Source of the DNA: Candidatus Baltobacteraceae bacterium
GTDB lineage: Bacteria; Vulcanimicrobiota; Vulcanimicrobiia; Vulcanimicrobiales; Vulcanimicrobiaceae
Direction of reading: 5' to 3'
Assembly: GCA_036488875.1 (NCBI GenBank)
Contig: DASXGW010000004.1
Span: 496,001 to 560,000 of the forward strand
Length of the DNA stretch: 64,000 bases
The position numbers were made by a program, and so were the translations under genes. A model generated the notes under the pieces. That model was not told the DNA's origin. It ran no database searches and saw nothing but the letters and a program-made list of their open reading frames with translations. Below are positions 19,195-25,856 of this stretch, piece after piece; position 1 is the stretch's first letter, and the number at the start of each line of letters is the position of its first letter.

Positions 19195-19609
19195 GATCCT
19201 ACGCGTGCAGCCCGATGCGGTTGCCGAGTTCTATCGCGGCGCCGAGCGGGAAGCGCTCAAAACGTTCTACGGCTTTTCCGTGATCTGGCACGAGCAGACG
19301 CACGATTTCGTCGCGCGCGACGGCGAGCGCGTCGTGGGCGCCGCGACGATTCGGATTTGCGCGTCGCTCGGGCACGTGGAAAAGGTCGCCGTCGCTGAAG
19401 ACGCGCGGCGCCACGGCGTCGGACGCCGGCTGCTCGACGCGGCCGACGACCTAGCGAAATACTATAACTGTCACAAGATGACGGTGCTGGTCCCGCATCG
19501 CAGCGCGGCTCAGGAGTTCTTCGAGGCGTGCGGCTATCGCGAGGAAGCCGTTTTGCCGCAGCACACGTTCAAGCTCGACATGACCGCGCTGCGCAAGTTC
19601 TTGCTCTAG
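19184..19609 (+). CDS. GNAT family N-acetyltransferase
   Basis: This 141-residue protein starts at TTG 19184 inside the end of the hydrolase gene. The GNAT core shows as GHVEKVAVAEDARRHGVGRRLLDAADDLA (acetyl-CoA binding R/Q-x-x-G-x-G/A motif: RRHGVG) and KMTVLVPHRSAAQEFFEACGYREE. The substrate is unknown; it may be the enzyme controlled by the PadR regulator two genes upstream. The stop overlaps the opposite-strand stop as CTAG. Confidence 0.85.
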   Translation: MAIEILRVQPDAVAEFYRGAEREALKTFYGFSVIWHEQTHDFVARDGERVVGAATIRICASLGHVEKVAVAEDARRHGVGRRLLDAADDLAKYYNCHKMTVLVPHRSAAQEFFEACGYREEAVLPQHTFKLDMTALRKFLL

Positions 19610-20850
19610 CGCGGCGGAGGCTGGTTCGGATGATTGTTCTGGTGCCGCTCTTCCCGGCGCTCTTGGTGCTGCTCTTGACGTTGGCCGTGTTGTTGCTGCG
19701 GCGGCGGCGCATATTGGCGCGGCGGCGGCGCGTATTGACGCTGCGGCGGCGCGTACTGACGCTGCGGCGGCGCGTATTGTCCCTGCGGCGGAACGTATCC
19801 GCGCGGCGGCCCGGGAGCGTATTGACCCGGCGCACCGGGATATTGCGGGGCGAAGCGCGTCGTCACCGGCGCGCGCACGAAGCCGCCGGCACGATTTCCG
19901 CGCAACTCCGCTTGAAACTGCGGATGCGCGTTGAGCGAGCCGTTGTAGAGATACACCGAACCGTCGCGACTGGTCGCGGTAACGACGGGACCGCCGCCTT
20001 CGACTTGGGCTTGGGTCGTGTTTTCGTTGCCGCGCAGTTGCGTGCCGTTCGAGAAGTTCGACATCACGCGGCCGCTCTCGCTGTGGGCGCCGATCTGCGC
20101 GGCGCCGCGAACGCCGAGCGCCACGTTGCCGTGCTCTGAGTCAAAGCGCGCGAGTCCCGGCTCGAACGATCCGTTGTTGTAGACGATCGATCCGTACCGG
20201 CTCGTCGCTTCGATTTGGTGCGACGTGCAGTTGTTGAAGATCATGTTGCTCGTCGCGCTGCGCGCGCGCAGGCGGTCGAAATTCGAATCGGTCGCGACGA
20301 TGCGGCCTTTGAGCGACTCGAGGTACCCGCTGCCGCTGACGCGGTTGAGAAAGATGCCGCCGCTGTGCGCTTGCGCCCAGAAAACGCCGCGATAGTCGTT
20401 GAGCGTCACGCGGCCTTTGTCGACGTGCGCCATCACGAGCGCCGTGCCGCGCGGAACCGTGATCGTCGTGTTGCCGTTGCCGCGCGCGCTGATGCCGTCG
20501 TGTTGCTGACCTTGGAGCGGCGGGAGCACGAACGGTTCGGCCGGCAGCGAGACCGGGCCGTACGCCGTTTGAACCGTGTGCGAACCGCCTGGAAGCTGCC
20601 GCTGGATGTACGGATCCACGGCGTTGGGTTCCAGATGCTGCACTTGAACCGTCCCGTCGGCGCTGACTTGCACGTCGGGGCGATCCCACGTCTGCACGGT
20701 GACGTTGCCGGTTCCCAGCTGCACGTCGACGACGGGGTTCGGCCCAACGGCGATCTGCTCGTCGGCGCGCGCTTGCGCCGCGAGGGTCGTCGCCCAACAG
20801 GACAGGGCGAGGAGGAAGGTCGCCGCTCCACGCCACCATTGGTTCCGCAC
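19606..20850 (-). CDS. exported DUF4097-like beta-repeat protein with Q/P/Y-rich repeat tail
   Basis: This protein is about 414 residues from GTG 20850, or 426 from the ATG at 20886 that overlaps the kinase stop. A signal peptide (RNQWWRGAATFLLALSCWATTLAAQARA) argues for 20850, and TACAAT lies 6 bases before it. The middle (VVDVQLGTGNVTVQTWDRPDVQV, then repeated short strands such as SGSGYLESLKGRIVATDS and STSRYGSIVYNNGS-type segments) resembles DUF4097/adhesin-like parallel beta repeats. The last 100 residues carry four copies of QYAPP(Q/P)R and then a Gln/His/Arg-rich end, low complexity and probably extended. It is the last gene of the sigma-membrane partner-regulator-kinase array, so it is probably their target or sensor partner at the envelope. 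Confidence 0.75.
   Translation of the reverse strand: MRNQWWRGAATFLLALSCWATTLAAQARADEQIAVGPNPVVDVQLGTGNVTVQTWDRPDVQVSADGTVQVQHLEPNAVDPYIQRQLPGGSHTVQTAYGPVSLPAEPFVLPPLQGQQHDGISARGNGNTTITVPRGTALVMAHVDKGRVTLNDYRGVFWAQAHSGGIFLNRVSGSGYLESLKGRIVATDSNFDRLRARSATSNMIFNNCTSHQIEATSRYGSIVYNNGSFEPGLARFDSEHGNVALGVRGAAQIGAHSESGRVMSNFSNGTQLRGNENTTQAQVEGGGPVVTATSRDGSVYLYNGSLNAHPQFQAELRGNRAGGFVRAPVTTRFAPQYPGAPGQYAPGPPRGYVPPQGQYAPPQRQYAPPQRQYAPPPRQYAPPPQQQHGQRQEQHQERREERHQNNHPNQPPPR
19692..19796. repeat. five tandem 21-bp units inside the DUF4097-like gene
   Basis: Units begin at 19692, 19713, 19734, 19755 and 19776 and are 21 bp each, differing at a few bases. They encode the heptad QYAPPQR and variants on the minus strand. 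Copy number may vary between strains by slippage. It is not a CRISPR, since there are no spacers. Confidence 0.85.
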
Positions 20851-20856
20851 GGACTC

Positions 20857-20862
20857 ATTGTA
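20857..20862 (-). promoter_or_regulatory. putative -10 element before the DUF4097-like gene
   Basis: On the minus strand TACAAT is followed after 6 bases by the GTG at 20850. It would allow a leaderless internal transcript of this gene separate from the kinase. It may instead be chance within the kinase-adjacent sequence. Confidence 0.4.
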
Positions 20863-20882
20863 TCGGCGGCCGGCTGGGGTCA

Positions 20883-22310
20883 TCATTGGGAATCCGCTAG
20901 AGGTGCCGTCATGCGGGGGAGGGTCACGGTAAACAGGGCACCGCCCGCCGGGCTGCGGGCCACCGAGACCTCGCCGTTGTGCACGCGAGCGATCGAGCGG
21001 ACGATCGCCAGTCCGAGGCCGGTCCCCGGCACGGTCCGCGAGCGCGCCTTGTCTGCCCGGTAGAAACGATCGAAGACGTGGGGCAGCTCCTCGGTCGGAA
21101 TCCCCGGCCCGCTGTCGCCGACCTCCACCCAAGCGCGCCCTTCGTCGCCCCCCACGCGGACGTCGACGCCGCCCTTTTCGGTGAACTTGATGGCGTTGTC
21201 GACGAGATTGGAAACGAGCTGGCGCAGCAGTCCCGGCTCGCCGTACACCGTCGGCGTGGCCTGGTGCTCGAACTCGAGCGTGAGGTGCTTTTCGGCCGCG
21301 CGCGGTTCGGCACCGCGCACGACTTCGTTAGCGACTTGCGCTAACGACGTCGGTTCTTTGGGAATGTCGTCGCCGCGATCGGCCTTCGCCAAGGTCAGCA
21401 TGCCGTTGACCATCGCAGCCAGCTGCGCGCTCTCTCCCGCGATCGTTTCGAGACTTTCACGCAGCACCGCCGGATCGCGATCGCCCCAGCGCATCAGCAT
21501 CTGTGCGTTGGCGTTGATCGACGTCAGCGGCGTTTTGAGCTCGTGCGACGCGTCCGAGATGAACTGCCGCTCGCGCGCGAACGCTTCGGATAGACGCTGC
21601 AGCAGGTCGTCGAAGCTTTCGGCCAGCTTGCCGATCTCGTCGGTCCGCCGGCGGTGATGCGAGCCGAGCCGGCGATCGAGTCCCTCCGAACCGATCTTCC
21701 GCATGGCGTCGGAGAGCTCGTTGATCGGCGTGGTGGCTTGCGACGCGAGCACGATCGAAAAGATCACGACGGCGAGCGCAGCCGCGCCGAGCGTGATCGC
21801 GATGGCGCGTATCGCGCGCGCAAACGTCAGATTGAGCGTGTCGATTGGTTCGGCGACGTGAATGACGGCGGAGCTCCCGCCTTCGTGCACGTAGCGATCT
21901 TCCACTAAGAACGGTCGCCCGCCGATGGCGATTTGCCGATACGCGGTATCGTGCTTGGCGTTTACGGACGGATTCGTTGGGATCGTGTCGTCGCCGAGGT
22001 TGGTGCTTCTTGCCAGCAGGTAGCCGTCTCGGGCACGATCGACCTGGATGAACGTGTTCGCGGAGCTCCAGTTGGCGAGATTCGCGCTGCTGAGGATGAA
22101 CTGAAGCGATTGCGACGAGCTGTCTTCGGTGACGAAGGGATTAGCCGACGTGGAAAACTGCACGATCGAGCGCATCGTCGAGTTGACCGACACCTTGACT
22201 TGGTCGTAGAGAATGCCTTGCAGCCGCCACGCGATGATGCCGCTGGTCAGCGCGAGCACCACGATCAGCAGCGTCGCGTACCAAACGGCGATCCGCCATT
22301 TTAAAGACAT
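20883..22310 (-). CDS. sensor histidine kinase
   Basis: This 475-residue protein has two membrane helices (IAVWYATLLIVVLALTSGIIAW at the start; AIAITLGAAALAVVIFSIVLAS near 170-190) flanking an extracytoplasmic sensor loop of about 140 residues. HAMP follows, then the phosphorylation box ISDASHELKTPLTSINANAQML with His256, and the ATPase with N (LVDNAIKFTEKGG), G1 (VGDSGPGIP), F (FDRFYRADKA) and G2 (GTGLGLAIV) boxes. All catalytic motifs are intact. It is the partner of the response regulator encoded 8 bases upstream. Its TGA overlaps an ATG of the next gene. Clustering with an ECF sigma factor and DUF4097 proteins points to envelope sensing. Confidence 0.95.
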   Translation of the reverse strand: MSLKWRIAVWYATLLIVVLALTSGIIAWRLQGILYDQVKVSVNSTMRSIVQFSTSANPFVTEDSSSQSLQFILSSANLANWSSANTFIQVDRARDGYLLARSTNLGDDTIPTNPSVNAKHDTAYRQIAIGGRPFLVEDRYVHEGGSSAVIHVAEPIDTLNLTFARAIRAIAITLGAAALAVVIFSIVLASQATTPINELSDAMRKIGSEGLDRRLGSHHRRRTDEIGKLAESFDDLLQRLSEAFARERQFISDASHELKTPLTSINANAQMLMRWGDRDPAVLRESLETIAGESAQLAAMVNGMLTLAKADRGDDIPKEPTSLAQVANEVVRGAEPRAAEKHLTLEFEHQATPTVYGEPGLLRQLVSNLVDNAIKFTEKGGVDVRVGGDEGRAWVEVGDSGPGIPTEELPHVFDRFYRADKARSRTVPGTGLGLAIVRSIARVHNGEVSVARSPAGGALFTVTLPRMTAPLADSQ

Positions 22311-22318
22311 TTAGGAGC

Positions 22319-22984
22319 CTAGTCTTTGATCGTGTAACCGACTCCGCGAACGGTCGTGATGAGCTTGTCGTCGAAGCCGTCGTCGATCTTGCCTCGCAAG
22401 TAGCGGATGTACACGTCGATCAAGTTGGAATCGCCCAAAAAATCGCTGCCCCACACGCCGTTGAAGAGCTCGTCGCGCGTGTGGACTTTGTTGCGGTGCA
22501 GCAGCAGGTACTCGAGCAGCGCGTACTCCTTGGCCGTGAGCGCGATCGGCTTCCCGCCGCGCTGGACTTCGTGGCGATCGCGGTCCATGATCACGTCGCG
22601 ATATTCGATGACGTTGGTTTGCGGCGAACGCTCGCGCAGCCGCGCGCGAACGCGCGCTAGAAGCTCTTCGGTCGAAAACGGTTTGGTGACGTAGTCGTCG
22701 GCGCCGACGTCCAAGCCGGCAACGCGATCGGGTACCCGGTCCTTGGCGGTGAGCATGATGATCGGCACCTTGCTCTTGGCGCGAATGCGCTTGCAAACTT
22801 CGATGCCGTCCATGCGCGGGAGCATCAAGTCGAGAACGACGAGATCGGGTTCCTTGAGGGCTTTTTCGAGACCGCTCAGTCCGTCGCGCGCGACGTCGAC
22901 TTCGTAGTTCTCGTGTTCGAGCTCGAGTTGCAGGACGCGGCTGATCGCCGCGTCGTCCTCGATGACGAGAATCTTATAGGGCAT
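22319..22984 (-). CDS. OmpR-family response regulator
   Basis: This 221-residue protein has a receiver domain with the acidic pair EDD near residue 10, phospho-acceptor Asp52 in LVVLDLMLPRMDG, Thr in IMLTAK and Lys in YVTKPF. A winged-helix DNA-binding domain follows (VIEYRDVIMDRDRHEVQRGG, LTAKEYALLEYLLLH, LIDVYIRYLRGKID, ITTVRGVGYTIKD). It is the cognate regulator of the kinase that follows. GATAAT lies 8 bases before its ATG, so it may have its own near-leaderless promoter at the end of the preceding gene. Confidence 0.95.
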   Translation of the reverse strand: MPYKILVIEDDAAISRVLQLELEHENYEVDVARDGLSGLEKALKEPDLVVLDLMLPRMDGIEVCKRIRAKSKVPIIMLTAKDRVPDRVAGLDVGADDYVTKPFSTEELLARVRARLRERSPQTNVIEYRDVIMDRDRHEVQRGGKPIALTAKEYALLEYLLLHRNKVHTRDELFNGVWGSDFLGDSNLIDVYIRYLRGKIDDGFDDKLITTVRGVGYTIKD

Positions 22985-22992
22985 GAAGCCGG

Positions 22993-22998
22993 ATTATC
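22993..22998 (-). promoter_or_regulatory. putative -10 element of the response regulator gene
   Basis: GATAAT on the minus strand is separated by 8 bases from ATG 22984 and overlaps the last codons of the upstream membrane-protein gene. It could start a transcript with at most one or two leader bases. Confidence 0.4.
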
Positions 22999-23374
22999 TG
23001 GCCCTCTGTCCTACCCTCTGCGAGGCGAGCGTAAAAGGTTGGGATCCGGTGAAAAACGTCAGCCAGAACGCCGTCGCGGCACCGGCCCCCAGCCAGGCCA
23101 AGGTCGTCACGTTCGAGAGCGGTCGCGCGACCGTCGAAACGATCGTTTCGATCGTGTGGACGAAGAGCGCTCCGCCGCCTATCGCGATCAGCGCGACGAG
23201 CCAAACGATAACGGCGGCCATCGCGCCGAAGAGCGTGACCTCCAAAACCGAGAACATCGGGGCCGGACGGTAAGCCGTCGCCGTGAGAATCGAAGCGCGT
23301 AGGTCGGCCGGCGGCTCCTCCAGCGGGAGCGCGAAGAGGGCCCGGTCGAGCGCGTCGTCGTCGCGGTACATCAT
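22994..23374 (-). CDS. small membrane protein, probable sigma-factor partner
   Basis: This 126-residue protein starts MMYRDDDALDRALFALPLEEPPADLRASIL, a short cytoplasmic helical region. Two membrane helices follow (VTLFGAMAAVIVWLVALIAIGGGALF; VTTLAWLGAGAATAFWLTFF). It starts inside the stop codon of the ECF sigma gene (ATGA overlap), the usual place for an anti-sigma factor. I see no zinc-binding HxxxCxxC of ZAS anti-sigma factors, so the anti-sigma role is inferred from position and topology only. Confidence 0.75.
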   Translation of the reverse strand: MMYRDDDALDRALFALPLEEPPADLRASILTATAYRPAPMFSVLEVTLFGAMAAVIVWLVALIAIGGGALFVHTIETIVSTVARPLSNVTTLAWLGAGAATAFWLTFFTGSQPFTLASQRVGQRAR

Positions 23375-23925
23375 TGGTCGGTTACCTCCGCCCCGCTCAG
23401 AAGCCTGCGCAGCTGCTCCTTCGCGCGGAATAAATGTGTTTTTACCGTACCCATCGGCAGTCCCAACACTTGCGCGATTTCCTCGTATTGACGGCCCTGC
23501 AAGTGATAGAGGGTGATGACCGTGCGGTATTTTTCGGGGAGTGCGTCGATCGCGGTCCGCAGCCGTTGGGCTTCGTCGAGCGCAATCGCTTGCTGCTCGG
23601 GTCCCGGCCCGGCGTCGGCGCGATCGGGCATCTCCTCACTAGAATAACGTTTGCGGCGGTTCAATCGGTCGCAGCAGGCGTGATAGGCGATTGCAAAGAT
23701 CCAGGTCGAGAACTTGGCACCCGGCTTAAAGGTCCGCAGGCTGCGAAAGGCCTTGAAGAACGCCTCTTGGGTGGCGTCCCGGGCCTCCTCGACGTCGTGC
23801 AGAGTGCGGAAAGCTAGGTGGTAGACCGCTCGGTCGTACCGCTCCACGAGTACGGCAAACGCGTCCGGGTTGCCCCGGACGGCCATAGCGACCAGGTCGC
23901 CATCGGCTGCTTCGGGCTGCGTCAC
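23371..23925 (-). CDS. ECF RNA polymerase sigma factor
   Basis: This protein is about 184 residues from GTG 23925 (MTQPEAADGDLVAMAVRGN); a TTG at 23937 is also possible, and longer starts run through an intergenic repeat. Region 2 is AFAVLVERYDRAVYHLAFRTLHDVEEARDATQEAFFKAFRSL with STWIFAIAYHACCDRLNRRKR. Region 4 is LPEKYRTVITLYHLQGRQYEEIAQVLGLPMGTVKTHLFRAKEQLRRLL. It heads a leftward array: sigma, membrane partner, response regulator, kinase, DUF4097-like protein. It lies back to back with a second array (24082-25617). Together they look like an envelope-stress regulon. Confidence 0.93.
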   Translation of the reverse strand: MTQPEAADGDLVAMAVRGNPDAFAVLVERYDRAVYHLAFRTLHDVEEARDATQEAFFKAFRSLRTFKPGAKFSTWIFAIAYHACCDRLNRRKRYSSEEMPDRADAGPGPEQQAIALDEAQRLRTAIDALPEKYRTVITLYHLQGRQYEEIAQVLGLPMGTVKTHLFRAKEQLRRLLSGAEVTDQ

Positions 23926-23985
23926 TTTCCTGTCCAAGAGAACTGCCGACACGCCCAAGGTACACGCGCGCGAGCGAATTGTTTC

Positions 23986-24035
23986 GCCCTTCGTTCCTCG
24001 ACTTCGGCGCTTCGCGCCTGCGCTCGGGATGACAG
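23986..24035. repeat. REP-like intergenic repeat (the 'CHPER' type)
   Basis: The sequence ends GCGCTCGGGATGACAGGATC and contains a small hairpin GGCGC-TTC-GCGCC (24006-24018). On the minus strand it reads in one frame as CHPERRREAPKSRNEGR, close to the mistranslated CHPERSEG-type peptides that mark a very widespread bacterial intergenic repeat. It sits between the divergent sigma array and the 24082 array. Spurious gene starts upstream of the sigma gene run through it. Confidence 0.7.
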
Positions 24036-24081
24036 GATCGGGCACGAAACATGGGGGGCGCGCCGGCCGTACCTAGGACAA

Positions 24082-24201
24082 ATGAACACGCACCTCCACT
24101 CCGCCCCGTCCCCGCGCCCGACCTTCGACTTTAGCTGGCGCTCCGGCTTCGCCTTCGCCGCCCCCCGCGCGGCAAAGCCGCTGGGGTCCCCCCTACCGTG
24201 A
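24082..24201 (+). CDS. 39-residue ORF coupled to the DUF4097 gene
   Basis: The ATG at 24082 opens a 39-residue frame (MNTHLHSAPSPRPTFDFSWR, then a Gly/Ala/Phe and Pro-rich end). Its TGA overlaps the GTG of the DUF4097 gene (GTGA). The coding part contains a GCGGC-AAA-GCCGC hairpin and GGGGTCCCC close to its end. TACCTA is 6 bases before the ATG, a poor -10. It may be a small envelope peptide or a translational leader controlling the next gene. No homologue is recognised. Confidence 0.5.
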   Translation: MNTHLHSAPSPRPTFDFSWRSGFAFAAPRAAKPLGSPLP

Positions 24202-25007
24202 GCCGGTCGTCCGTGGTTGCGGCGCTCGTCGCCGTCGAGGTCGCCATCGTGGCGATCGCGCTCTACGCGATCGGCTTCGGCCGTCCGGGAGCGGCAATGG
24301 CCGGAATGCGGCACTACGACTTTGCCGGGAAACCGTTTCCGGCGCTGGCGGCGGGAACGGCTCCGCACGTTACGATCGACGATCCGCAATCGACCGTCGA
24401 GGTCAAAACGTCGAGCGACGGGATGGTGCACGTCACCGATCTCACCAATGTGCAAGGGTTGCGCTTCCCCGGCGATAGCGGGATTCCGCCATTGAGCGTC
24501 TCGCGCACCGCCGACGGCGTTGCGATTTCGCGGCCGCGTCACGAACGATTCTTCTTGATGGGCATGTCCGACGAACGCATCGAGGTCGACGTGCCGGAGG
24601 CGTCGCGTTTGGAGATCACGCACTCTGAAGGCGACGACGTTACGGGCGTTACCGGAGGCGTGTACGTCCGCTCGCAAGACGGTCACATCGGTCTCAACGA
24701 CGTTAAGGGCACGGTCGACGCGCACAGCGACGACGGATCGATTCGCACCCACGGGCTTGCGTTGACCGGTGACAATAGCATGTCGACCAACGACGGCAGG
24801 ATCGAGCTCGGATTCGCTCCGGGAGCCGATCTCAACGTCGAGGTTGGAACCGACGACGGACGCATTACCGTCGACGGAAACCGCGTCGGTCGCGACAGCG
24901 ACGACGACGCGGCACACTACACGATGCGTCTCGGGAACGGCAGCGCCAGTCTGCGCGCGACGTCACGGGATGGGTCGATCCACATTACCACGAACGGAGC
25001 GCTCTAG
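24198..25007 (+). CDS. membrane-anchored DUF4097 protein
   Basis: This 269-residue protein has an N-terminal helix (VVAALVAVEVAIVAIALYAIGFG) and then a long outside domain of short repeating strands: HVTIDDPQSTVEVKTSSDG, GVYVRSQDGHIGLNDVKGTVDAHSDDGSIRTHG, NDGRIELGF, TDDGRITVDGN, SRDGSIHITTNG. The recurring (S/T)xDGxI pattern is the DUF4097 beta-solenoid signature, as in LiaG/YvlB-type proteins of envelope-stress loci. It starts by a GTGA overlap from the 39-residue ORF and is followed after 4 bases by a membrane protein. It is divergent from the sigma/two-component array that ends in another DUF4097-like protein. Confidence 0.85.
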   Translation: MSRSSVVAALVAVEVAIVAIALYAIGFGRPGAAMAGMRHYDFAGKPFPALAAGTAPHVTIDDPQSTVEVKTSSDGMVHVTDLTNVQGLRFPGDSGIPPLSVSRTADGVAISRPRHERFFLMGMSDERIEVDVPEASRLEITHSEGDDVTGVTGGVYVRSQDGHIGLNDVKGTVDAHSDDGSIRTHGLALTGDNSMSTNDGRIELGFAPGADLNVEVGTDDGRITVDGNRVGRDSDDDAAHYTMRLGNGSASLRATSRDGSIHITTNGAL

Positions 25008-25011
25008 CGCC

Positions 25012-25617
25012 ATGGAACCAGAAATCGTCGTCCCAGTCGCATTTTTCTTCTTCGTCATCGGACTGCCCGTGACGTTAGCAATCGTTTCGCGCTACATGGC
25101 GCATCAGGAACGGATGGAATACATTCGCCGCGGCATGGTGCCGCCGCCGATGTCGCCCGATCCGCGCATGATGCGTAAAGCGATGAAGTTCGGAGCGTGG
25201 CCGCCCGGGCCGCCGCCGGCACCGGGGACGTTTGCCGCGCCGTATTACGATCCGAGTTACTACGCGCAACATCAACTGCGCCGCGGCATCCAAGTCGCGT
25301 TCATCGGATTGGCGCTGCTCATCGGCCTGTCGTTCATCGGCTATCACGGCGGAACGTACGTCTACGGCCCGTGGCTGCTCGGCGGTCTGATCCCGATGTT
25401 CGTCGGTATCGCGCAGATTATCGGCGCGGTGCTCAGCGGCGCCCAGCTCGGCAACGTCAGCGTGAGCGTCGGTCCGCAGCAGACGGTGCAAGGCGCGCAG
25501 CCGCCGCCGGCCGCGTCGGCTGGAAGCGTTCCGCCGTCGGGTCCGTATGCAGGCTGGCGTCCGGGACCAATCCCCGAGATCGAGAAACCGCCGAGCCCTC
25601 CCGATTACCGTCCGTAG
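25012..25617 (+). CDS. DUF6249-like membrane protein
   Basis: This 201-residue protein from ATG 25012 has a first membrane helix (VVPVAFFFFVIGLPVTLAIVSRYM) and a cytoplasmic HQERMEYIRRGMVPPPMSPD segment that resembles the ERxAxIExGM pattern of DUF6249. Two further helices follow near 90-140 (QVAFIGLALLIGLSFIGYHGG; YGPWLLGGLIPMFVGIAQIIGAVLSG), then a Pro-rich tail. The function is unknown. It is the last gene of the 39-residue ORF/DUF4097 set and is followed by a hairpin terminator. Confidence 0.8.
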   Translation: MEPEIVVPVAFFFFVIGLPVTLAIVSRYMAHQERMEYIRRGMVPPPMSPDPRMMRKAMKFGAWPPGPPPAPGTFAAPYYDPSYYAQHQLRRGIQVAFIGLALLIGLSFIGYHGGTYVYGPWLLGGLIPMFVGIAQIIGAVLSGAQLGNVSVSVGPQQTVQGAQPPPAASAGSVPPSGPYAGWRPGPIPEIEKPPSPPDYRP

Positions 25618-25715: not shown

Positions 25716-25856
25716 CTACCTGCAGGATACCAGTGCCATTGCCCATCCGGCGGTTGTGCGGGTCCTGACGAGATATCCGTCCGCAGTCCGGTCGTAAACC
25801 TGGTAGCCGGCTCGAAGGGCGTCGGCTAGCGACTTGAAGACGATAAGACCTGCCAT
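25716..25856 (-). CDS. 46-residue protein of unknown function
   Basis: This gene is too small for default gene finding but is one of the best-supported translation units here. It has ATG 25856 with a perfect ribosome site (AAAGGAGG, 8-base spacing), a sigma70-like promoter upstream (see 25889-25917) and a hairpin terminator with U-tract 40 bases after the stop. The product starts MAGLIVFKSLADALRAGYQV, continues with YDRTADGYLVRTRTTAGW and ends ALVSCR. The shape suggests a compact alpha/beta fold (strand, helix, strand, strand). It has no signal peptide or membrane helix, so it is cytosolic, and it stands alone between two operons. I recognise no named family. Confidence 0.8.
   Translation of the reverse strand: MAGLIVFKSLADALRAGYQVYDRTADGYLVRTRTTAGWAMALVSCR

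Follow-up and report, generated by a model that had tools for sequence, protein, structure and literature searches.

Two back-to-back gene arrays at positions 19606-25617 of a 64,000-nt stretch of a Candidatus Baltobacteraceae bacterium genome (GenBank assembly GCA_036488875.1, contig DASXGW010000004.1, positions 496,001 to 560,000; the whole stretch is called the window) appear from their sequence to form a self-amplifying, autoregulated circuit built on a SigW-like extracytoplasmic function (ECF) sigma factor. In this reading, to which we give a probability of roughly two in three, a small membrane protein would inhibit the sigma factor, both arms would be induced together and a two-component system would lie below the sigma factor. 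The leftward array encodes the sigma factor (SIG), the small membrane protein (MEM), an OmpR/PhoB-type response regulator (RR), a sensor histidine kinase (HK), and an exported DUF4097, or Toastrack, protein (DUFexp). The rightward array holds a 39-residue open reading frame (ORF) followed by the genes of a membrane-anchored DUF4097 protein (DUFmem) and a DUF6249 membrane protein. An earlier note made from the letters of the DNA (the original prediction) had described both arrays gene by gene; that description was correct, and every gene it named is found where it had been placed. Gene content, conserved order, tight spacing, paired promoters, and the same promoter at relocated DUFmem genes can be read from the DNA; from these we infer binding of MEM to the sigma factor, envelope damage as the signal and transcription through to the two-component genes.

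Gene order is conserved across the family

The original prediction depended on a gene order that extends beyond this genome, and a search of related genomes found such an order. The SIG-MEM-RR-HK-DUFexp genes are contiguous and co-oriented in 25 loci including that of the window, the 24 others being mostly from different genera. The relatives are draft genomes, in most cases a single one for each species, and because of their shared ancestry the loci do not represent independent events. Each of the 27 loci with all five leftward genes has a divergent DUF6249 gene, and 14 of them have a divergent DUFmem gene as well. Several incomplete loci are explained by breaks at contig ends (e.g., L043, L047, L070-L073, and L077). 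Apart from RR (~79-94% identical among family relatives) and the sigma factor, the proteins of different loci are often only 35-60% identical, so the conservation does not merely reflect recent ancestry. Gene order is conserved far beyond chance, across the family.

The genes of the leftward array are closely packed, with successive spacings from SIG through MEM, RR, and HK to DUFexp of -4, +9, +8, and -1 nt (the HK gene overlaps the DUFexp gene by 1 nt). The 4-nt overlap of the MEM and sigma genes is found in most loci, and SIG and its membrane partner would be expected to share one transcript. SigW was the second-best NCBIfam model for SIG (134 bits), and the best models for RR were MtrA and PhoB, both below their cut-offs.

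Both arms carry SigW-type promoter elements

The SigW consensus promoter is TGAAAC-N16,17-CGTA (PMC2375139), and the elements found in the intergenic region fit it. Of 34 loci, 30 have a match to GAAAC-N15-18-CGTA facing the sigma gene, 32 have one facing the rightward arm, and 29 have both, compared with 0.065 loci per 34 in mononucleotide-shuffled controls and a mean of 0.13 (maximum 2 of 34) in dinucleotide-shuffled controls. The usual spacer is 16 nt toward the right arm and 17 nt toward sigma. The distance from the first base of CGTA to the sigma start codon is 12 or 13 nt in most loci (in the window the GTG codon is 12 nt past the first base of the leftward -10 element) and hence the sigma message is predicted to be leaderless. 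DUFmem genes located outside the locus in two other genomes (G014, L050 and G006, L052) have the same promoter elements 33-34 nt upstream of their starts.

No GAAAC-CGTA promoter was found within 300 nt before the MEM, RR, HK, or DUFexp genes (35-39 loci each), which is consistent with one long leftward operon, and no sigma-70 consensus promoters were found in the region. The simplest reading would be one sigma-driven operon leftward and one rightward. The original prediction had treated the arrays as a co-regulated block, and the common promoter type on both arms predicts such co-regulation.

Scanning 96 family genomes with a strict form of the promoter pattern gave matches well above the reversed control, many of them at this locus. 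Elsewhere, a strict SigW-type promoter lies a few nt upstream of the gene of a secreted protein family (~310 aa) in genus g33 (L163, L164, and L173 in genomes G104, G105, and G033), and this family is a candidate for membership in the sigma regulon. In G000, the genome that contains the window (a 3.7-Mb draft, 97.6% complete), a strict match at G000:C12:145632-145660 (L170) immediately precedes the gene of an ABC transporter ATPase, a candidate sigma target. The other DUF4097 genes of G000 (L087-L089) have promoter-pattern matches in two of three loci; these are unplaced relative to the gene starts and were given no weight.

MEM is a candidate non-zinc anti-sigma factor

MEM contains no cysteine, and therefore has neither a lipobox nor a ZAS motif, the lack of the latter having been pointed out in the original prediction. 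The ZAS motif is not essential, as some anti-sigma factors are without it. In an alignment of 34 MEM proteins, conservation was strongest in the first 40 residues, which are cytoplasmic and contain the segment DxLDRALFALPLEEPPADLRAxILAAT. The AlphaFold model has helices at residues 6-15 and 23-33 followed by long hydrophobic helices. When the 34 proteins were scanned against NCBIfam, the sole models matched by more than one member were two anti-sigma models, each matched by six members. As the best E values (0.0018 and 0.021) are below the cut-offs of these models, anti-sigma status is a well-placed prediction rather than family membership, and MEM is considered a candidate non-zinc anti-sigma factor on these similarities.

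DUFexp and DUFmem are Toastrack proteins

That the paired DUF4097 proteins are Toastrack beta-helix proteins was confirmed by Pfam, both exceeding the curated PF13349 cut-off of 22.9 bits (DUFexp with 25.0 bits and DUFmem with 31.7 bits), and for DUFexp also by a fold match. PF13349 was matched by 15 of 25 DUFexp family members and by 19 of 19 DUFmem family members. DUFexp consists of a hydrophobic N-terminus, a right-handed beta-helix, and a repeat tail rich in Pro, Gln, and Tyr. AlphaFold predicted residues 41-320 with a pLDDT of ~92-98 and the tail as disordered, and the best PDB match of the predicted fold was 4QRK (E 6e-7), a Toastrack reference named by Ravi et al. 2024 (PMC11237479). 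DUFexp relatives are present in 41 of 60 genomes. The DUF6249 protein scored 37.9 bits against PF19762 (cut-off 33.0).

Proposed mechanism and alternatives

In the proposed circuit MEM would hold the sigma factor at the membrane until an envelope signal relieves this inhibition, upon which the sigma factor bound to RNA polymerase would fire both back-to-back SigW-type promoters. Leftward transcription would give more sigma factor and MEM from the leaderless message, followed by the OmpR-type two-component system and the exported Toastrack protein. Rightward transcription would give the anchored Toastrack protein and the DUF6249 membrane protein, in many relatives preceded by a microprotein having the C-terminal motif FxGWGP (see below). 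Effector function probably resides in the Toastrack and DUF6249 proteins, and by family analogy the system probably acts in envelope stress.

Several observations weigh against this circuit. The leftward -10 element of the window is TGTA, one mismatch from CGTA. MEM gave no above-cut-off family match or solved-fold match in searches of Pfam, PDB sequences, and predicted folds, and its cytoplasmic part, of ~42 aa, is smaller than would be expected of an anti-sigma domain. In the genus mate, a draft genome of 340 contigs and 90% completeness, DUFmem, DUFexp, and MEM found no match and the sigma factor no close homologue. Moreover, the two modules are separable, since RR-HK-DUFexp stands without a sigma gene in family f3, which belongs to the same class, and also in G006, where SIG-MEM with its divergent DUF6249 gene is at one place and RR-HK-DUFexp at another. 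In G038 only SIG-MEM with DUF6249 was seen.

Such separation would be expected if sigma-MEM-DUF6249 and RR-HK-DUFexp were two independently regulated modules that merely stay adjacent. However, 25 loci of family f1 have the array in contiguous form, with overlaps or short gaps, and we consider independent regulation improbable. A hierarchy like that of CseABC, in which the two-component system would sense the envelope, RR would activate the sigma operon and MEM would be an accessory protein rather than an anti-sigma factor, is unlikely. The order of ECF sigma factor, membrane-associated accessory protein, RR, and HK is that of Streptomyces sigE-cseA-cseB-cseC, where CseB activates sigE and there is no anti-sigma factor (PMC6767563), and the lack of a strong anti-sigma match for MEM also fits. 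In contrast, the sigma gene here is preceded by an ECF-type promoter that is paired with the target promoter, whereas SigmaE does not target the sigE promoter in Streptomyces (PMC6767563). SIG-MEM-DUF6249 is without adjoining two-component genes in G006 and G038 and keeps the promoter pair or the rightward half, RR scores 189 bits on the CseB model (cut-off 350), and inspection of the intergenic region by eye showed no other conserved block.

The original prediction had also noted that DUF4097 proteins accompany Lia/Psp-type envelope stress loci in Firmicutes; in a system of that type the Toastrack proteins would be partners of PspA. This relationship is unsupported beyond the shared domain. 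Genome searches found neither a PspA_IM30 nor a PspC homologue in G000, whereas 9 and 7 of 14 control genomes, respectively, were positive. As the genome lacks both proteins, the locus is not a Psp/Lia system, and we consider that explanation very improbable.

The 39-residue ORF and a family of FxGWGP microproteins

Many relatives with a longer gap have, at the same place as the 39-residue ORF, an ORF of 28-45 codons that ends in TFxGWGP[RK][IL]-stop, mostly as RPTFxGWGP, and sits directly before, or overlaps, the DUFmem or DUF6249 gene. The window ORF reads MNTHLHSAPSPRPTFD and then diverges from these relatives. It keeps only RPTFD of the conserved C-terminus, fails the FxGWGP-x-[LIF]-stop pattern, and also lacks the KTLP-type N-terminus that its close relatives have. 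A repeat at 24131-24191, which is similar to several more places in the genome, occupies the position of the relatives' GWGP[RK][LI]-stop. Judged by this comparison, the window ORF is a remnant of a conserved microprotein gene broken by a dispersed repeat. The ORF noted in the original prediction therefore exists, although as a disrupted form of a conserved small gene. A chance ORF was rejected because a conserved peptide is encoded at the same place in relatives. Also rejected was the possibility that TGGGGTCCC at the end of the ORF represents GWGP codons out of frame, as that stretch belongs to the dispersed repeat.

A stop-agnostic search for the TFxGWGP pattern gave 20 places in 60 genomes and none for the reversed pattern. 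The stop codon lies exactly two residues after the pattern in 17 of the 20 places and three residues after it in one. The position of the stop is not absolute, since the TFGGWGPK peptide of L107 (G035:C23) runs ~10 residues beyond it. A looser pattern, GWGP-x-x-stop, matched in 77 of 149 Eremiobacterota genomes versus four matches for the reversed control. Six of the nine C-terminal positions were specified in full or in part by this pattern, and thus conservation at those positions is partly imposed by the search. For all the small ORFs, start codons were picked by rule. Independent support for the family comes from the stop-agnostic scan, from a Phe, from codon variation, and from gene neighbourhoods. 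The residue two before GWGP, absent from the search pattern, is Phe in 61 of 61 distinct sequences, and among these sequences the synonymous positions of the F, G, G, and P codons vary. Close pairs differ mainly at synonymous sites, the proportions of synonymous (pS) and nonsynonymous (pN) differences being 0.36 and 0.01 for L112/L113, 0.19 and 0.00 for L090/L091, and 0.18 and 0.06 for L139/L140. Four examples gave no match to Pfam or NCBIfam, and the proteins appear soluble.

Beyond the ECF locus, the microprotein gene lies just before a GntR-type regulator gene in 35 of 64 fetched places (some counted twice), and ABC transporter genes come after the GntR-type gene at those places examined further. 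G000 itself encodes, outside the window, an intact FxGWGP microprotein, MTRFTTARPDSEMAREARTPVRLPEQMSAGLFQGWGPKF (G000:C4:29746-29766; L139:5747-5767), directly before a GntR-type regulator gene that is followed by an ABC ATPase gene and two permease-like genes. A near-identical peptide is found before a GntR-type gene in the genus mate (L140). Other FxGWGP microprotein genes overlap a PadR-type regulator gene, judged by sequence (L158, G097:C482), or precede the gene of a small membrane protein (L099, G034:C80) or one resembling a STAS-domain protein (L154, G041:C12). As a test for an attenuator, RNA structure was scored around the microprotein stop codon; a conserved terminator or sequestering hairpin was unsupported there, with a mean z of -0.58 for the ECF type and +0.05 for the others. 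We tentatively suggest, as a possibility somewhat short of even odds, that peptides ending in FxGWGP[RK][LIF]-stop are an undescribed kind of regulatory microprotein in this bacterial class. Their genes would be the opening cistrons of a number of regulated operons (ECF/Toastrack, GntR-ABC, and one PadR-linked), and the peptides would act through the fixed C-terminus, either as ligands of a shared partner or as nascent-chain leaders that adjust expression of the following gene.

Features of the locus

Features of the locus in window coordinates, with strand and basis of assignment
Feature	Position	Strand	Basis
DUFexp, exported DUF4097/Toastrack protein, 425 aa	19606-20883	-	Pfam PF13349, AlphaFold, PDB fold match
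HK, sensor histidine kinase, 475 aa, HAMP-HisKA-HATPase	20883-22310	-	Pfam
RR, OmpR/PhoB-type response regulator, 221 aa, Response_reg and Trans_reg_C	22319-22984	-	Pfam, NCBIfam
MEM, small membrane protein, candidate anti-sigma factor	22994-23374	-	Alignment of 34, AlphaFold, weak NCBIfam matches
SIG, ECF sigma factor, GTG start	23371-23952	-	Pfam Sigma70_r2 and r4
Predicted leftward SigW-type promoter	23961-23985	-	GAAAC 23985-23981, 16 nt, TGTA 23964-23961
Dispersed repeat copy between the two -35 boxes	23998-24035		~25 further copies in genome
Predicted rightward SigW-type promoter	24046-24071	+	GAAAC 24046-24050, 17 nt, CGTA 24068-24071
Remnant of FxGWGP microprotein gene, 39 aa	24082-24201	+	Comparison with ORFs of relatives
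Dispersed repeat inside the 39-aa ORF	24131-24191		90% identical to G000:C4:171854-171914
DUFmem, membrane-anchored DUF4097/Toastrack protein, 269 aa, GTG start	24198-25007	+	Pfam PF13349
DUF6249 membrane protein, 201 aa	25012-25617	+	Pfam PF19762

The repeat that lies between the -35 boxes differs from the one inside the 39-aa ORF. Several of its G000 copies form a tandem-like cluster at G000:C1:68532-69038, and in a relative (L059) another, tandem repeat occupies the corresponding position. Beyond the rightward array, a 46-aa ORF at 25716-25856 on the minus strand is preceded by a good ribosome-binding site, is followed by a strong intrinsic terminator (25677-25650), and resembles a real small gene. 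No RNA families were found in the window.

Comparison with known systems

The original prediction's view that the combination is undescribed was too strong, as ECF/two-component operons and Toastrack/sigma contexts are already known, although the exact four-part combination was not found described. Ravi et al. 2024 reported both sigma factors and two-component systems in Toastrack gene contexts (PMC11237479). What is gained is a testable stress circuit for a phylum with few cultured members, comprising a promoter code of the SigW type, the predicted core of a regulon, and a sigma factor that would stand above a two-component system. The microprotein family is the less expected part: small proteins whose C-terminal signature is almost invariant, encoded in roughly half of the Eremiobacterota genomes sampled, their genes mostly directly before regulator or membrane-protein genes.

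For the wider FxGWGP family the B. subtilis ytrGABCDEF operon is alike in layout, with the genes of a small protein, a GntR repressor, and an ABC transporter in one operon. YtrG is a small transmembrane protein, whereas the FxGWGP proteins look soluble. The Lia system (liaIHGFSR) and the Toastrack operons of Psp partners resemble the present locus in having a Toastrack protein beside a two-component system, but here there is no PspA/LiaH or PspC and an ECF sigma factor is at the centre of control. In promoter and effector logic the nearest system is that of B. subtilis SigW and yvlABCD, which encodes the Toastrack protein YvlB and is at least partly SigmaW-controlled (PMC12791056). Both systems share the TGAAAC/CGTA promoter elements and a Toastrack protein under an ECF sigma factor, but yvlABCD has no two-component system in the unit and YvlC is a PspC protein, absent here.

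The closest architecture is that of Streptomyces coelicolor sigE-cseABC, an ECF/two-component operon (PMC6767563) that acts in envelope stress and whose sigma factor belongs to ECF39 (PMC8999054). The ECF sigma factor, a membrane-associated second gene, RR, and HK occur there in the same order in one operon. The two systems differ in that CseA is a lipoprotein whereas MEM has neither cysteine nor lipobox, and sigE-cseABC lacks a Toastrack or DUF6249 arm in the unit. The direction of control is also opposite, as CseBC drives sigE in Streptomyces, whereas here, from motif evidence, the sigma factor appears to drive itself together with the two-component system.

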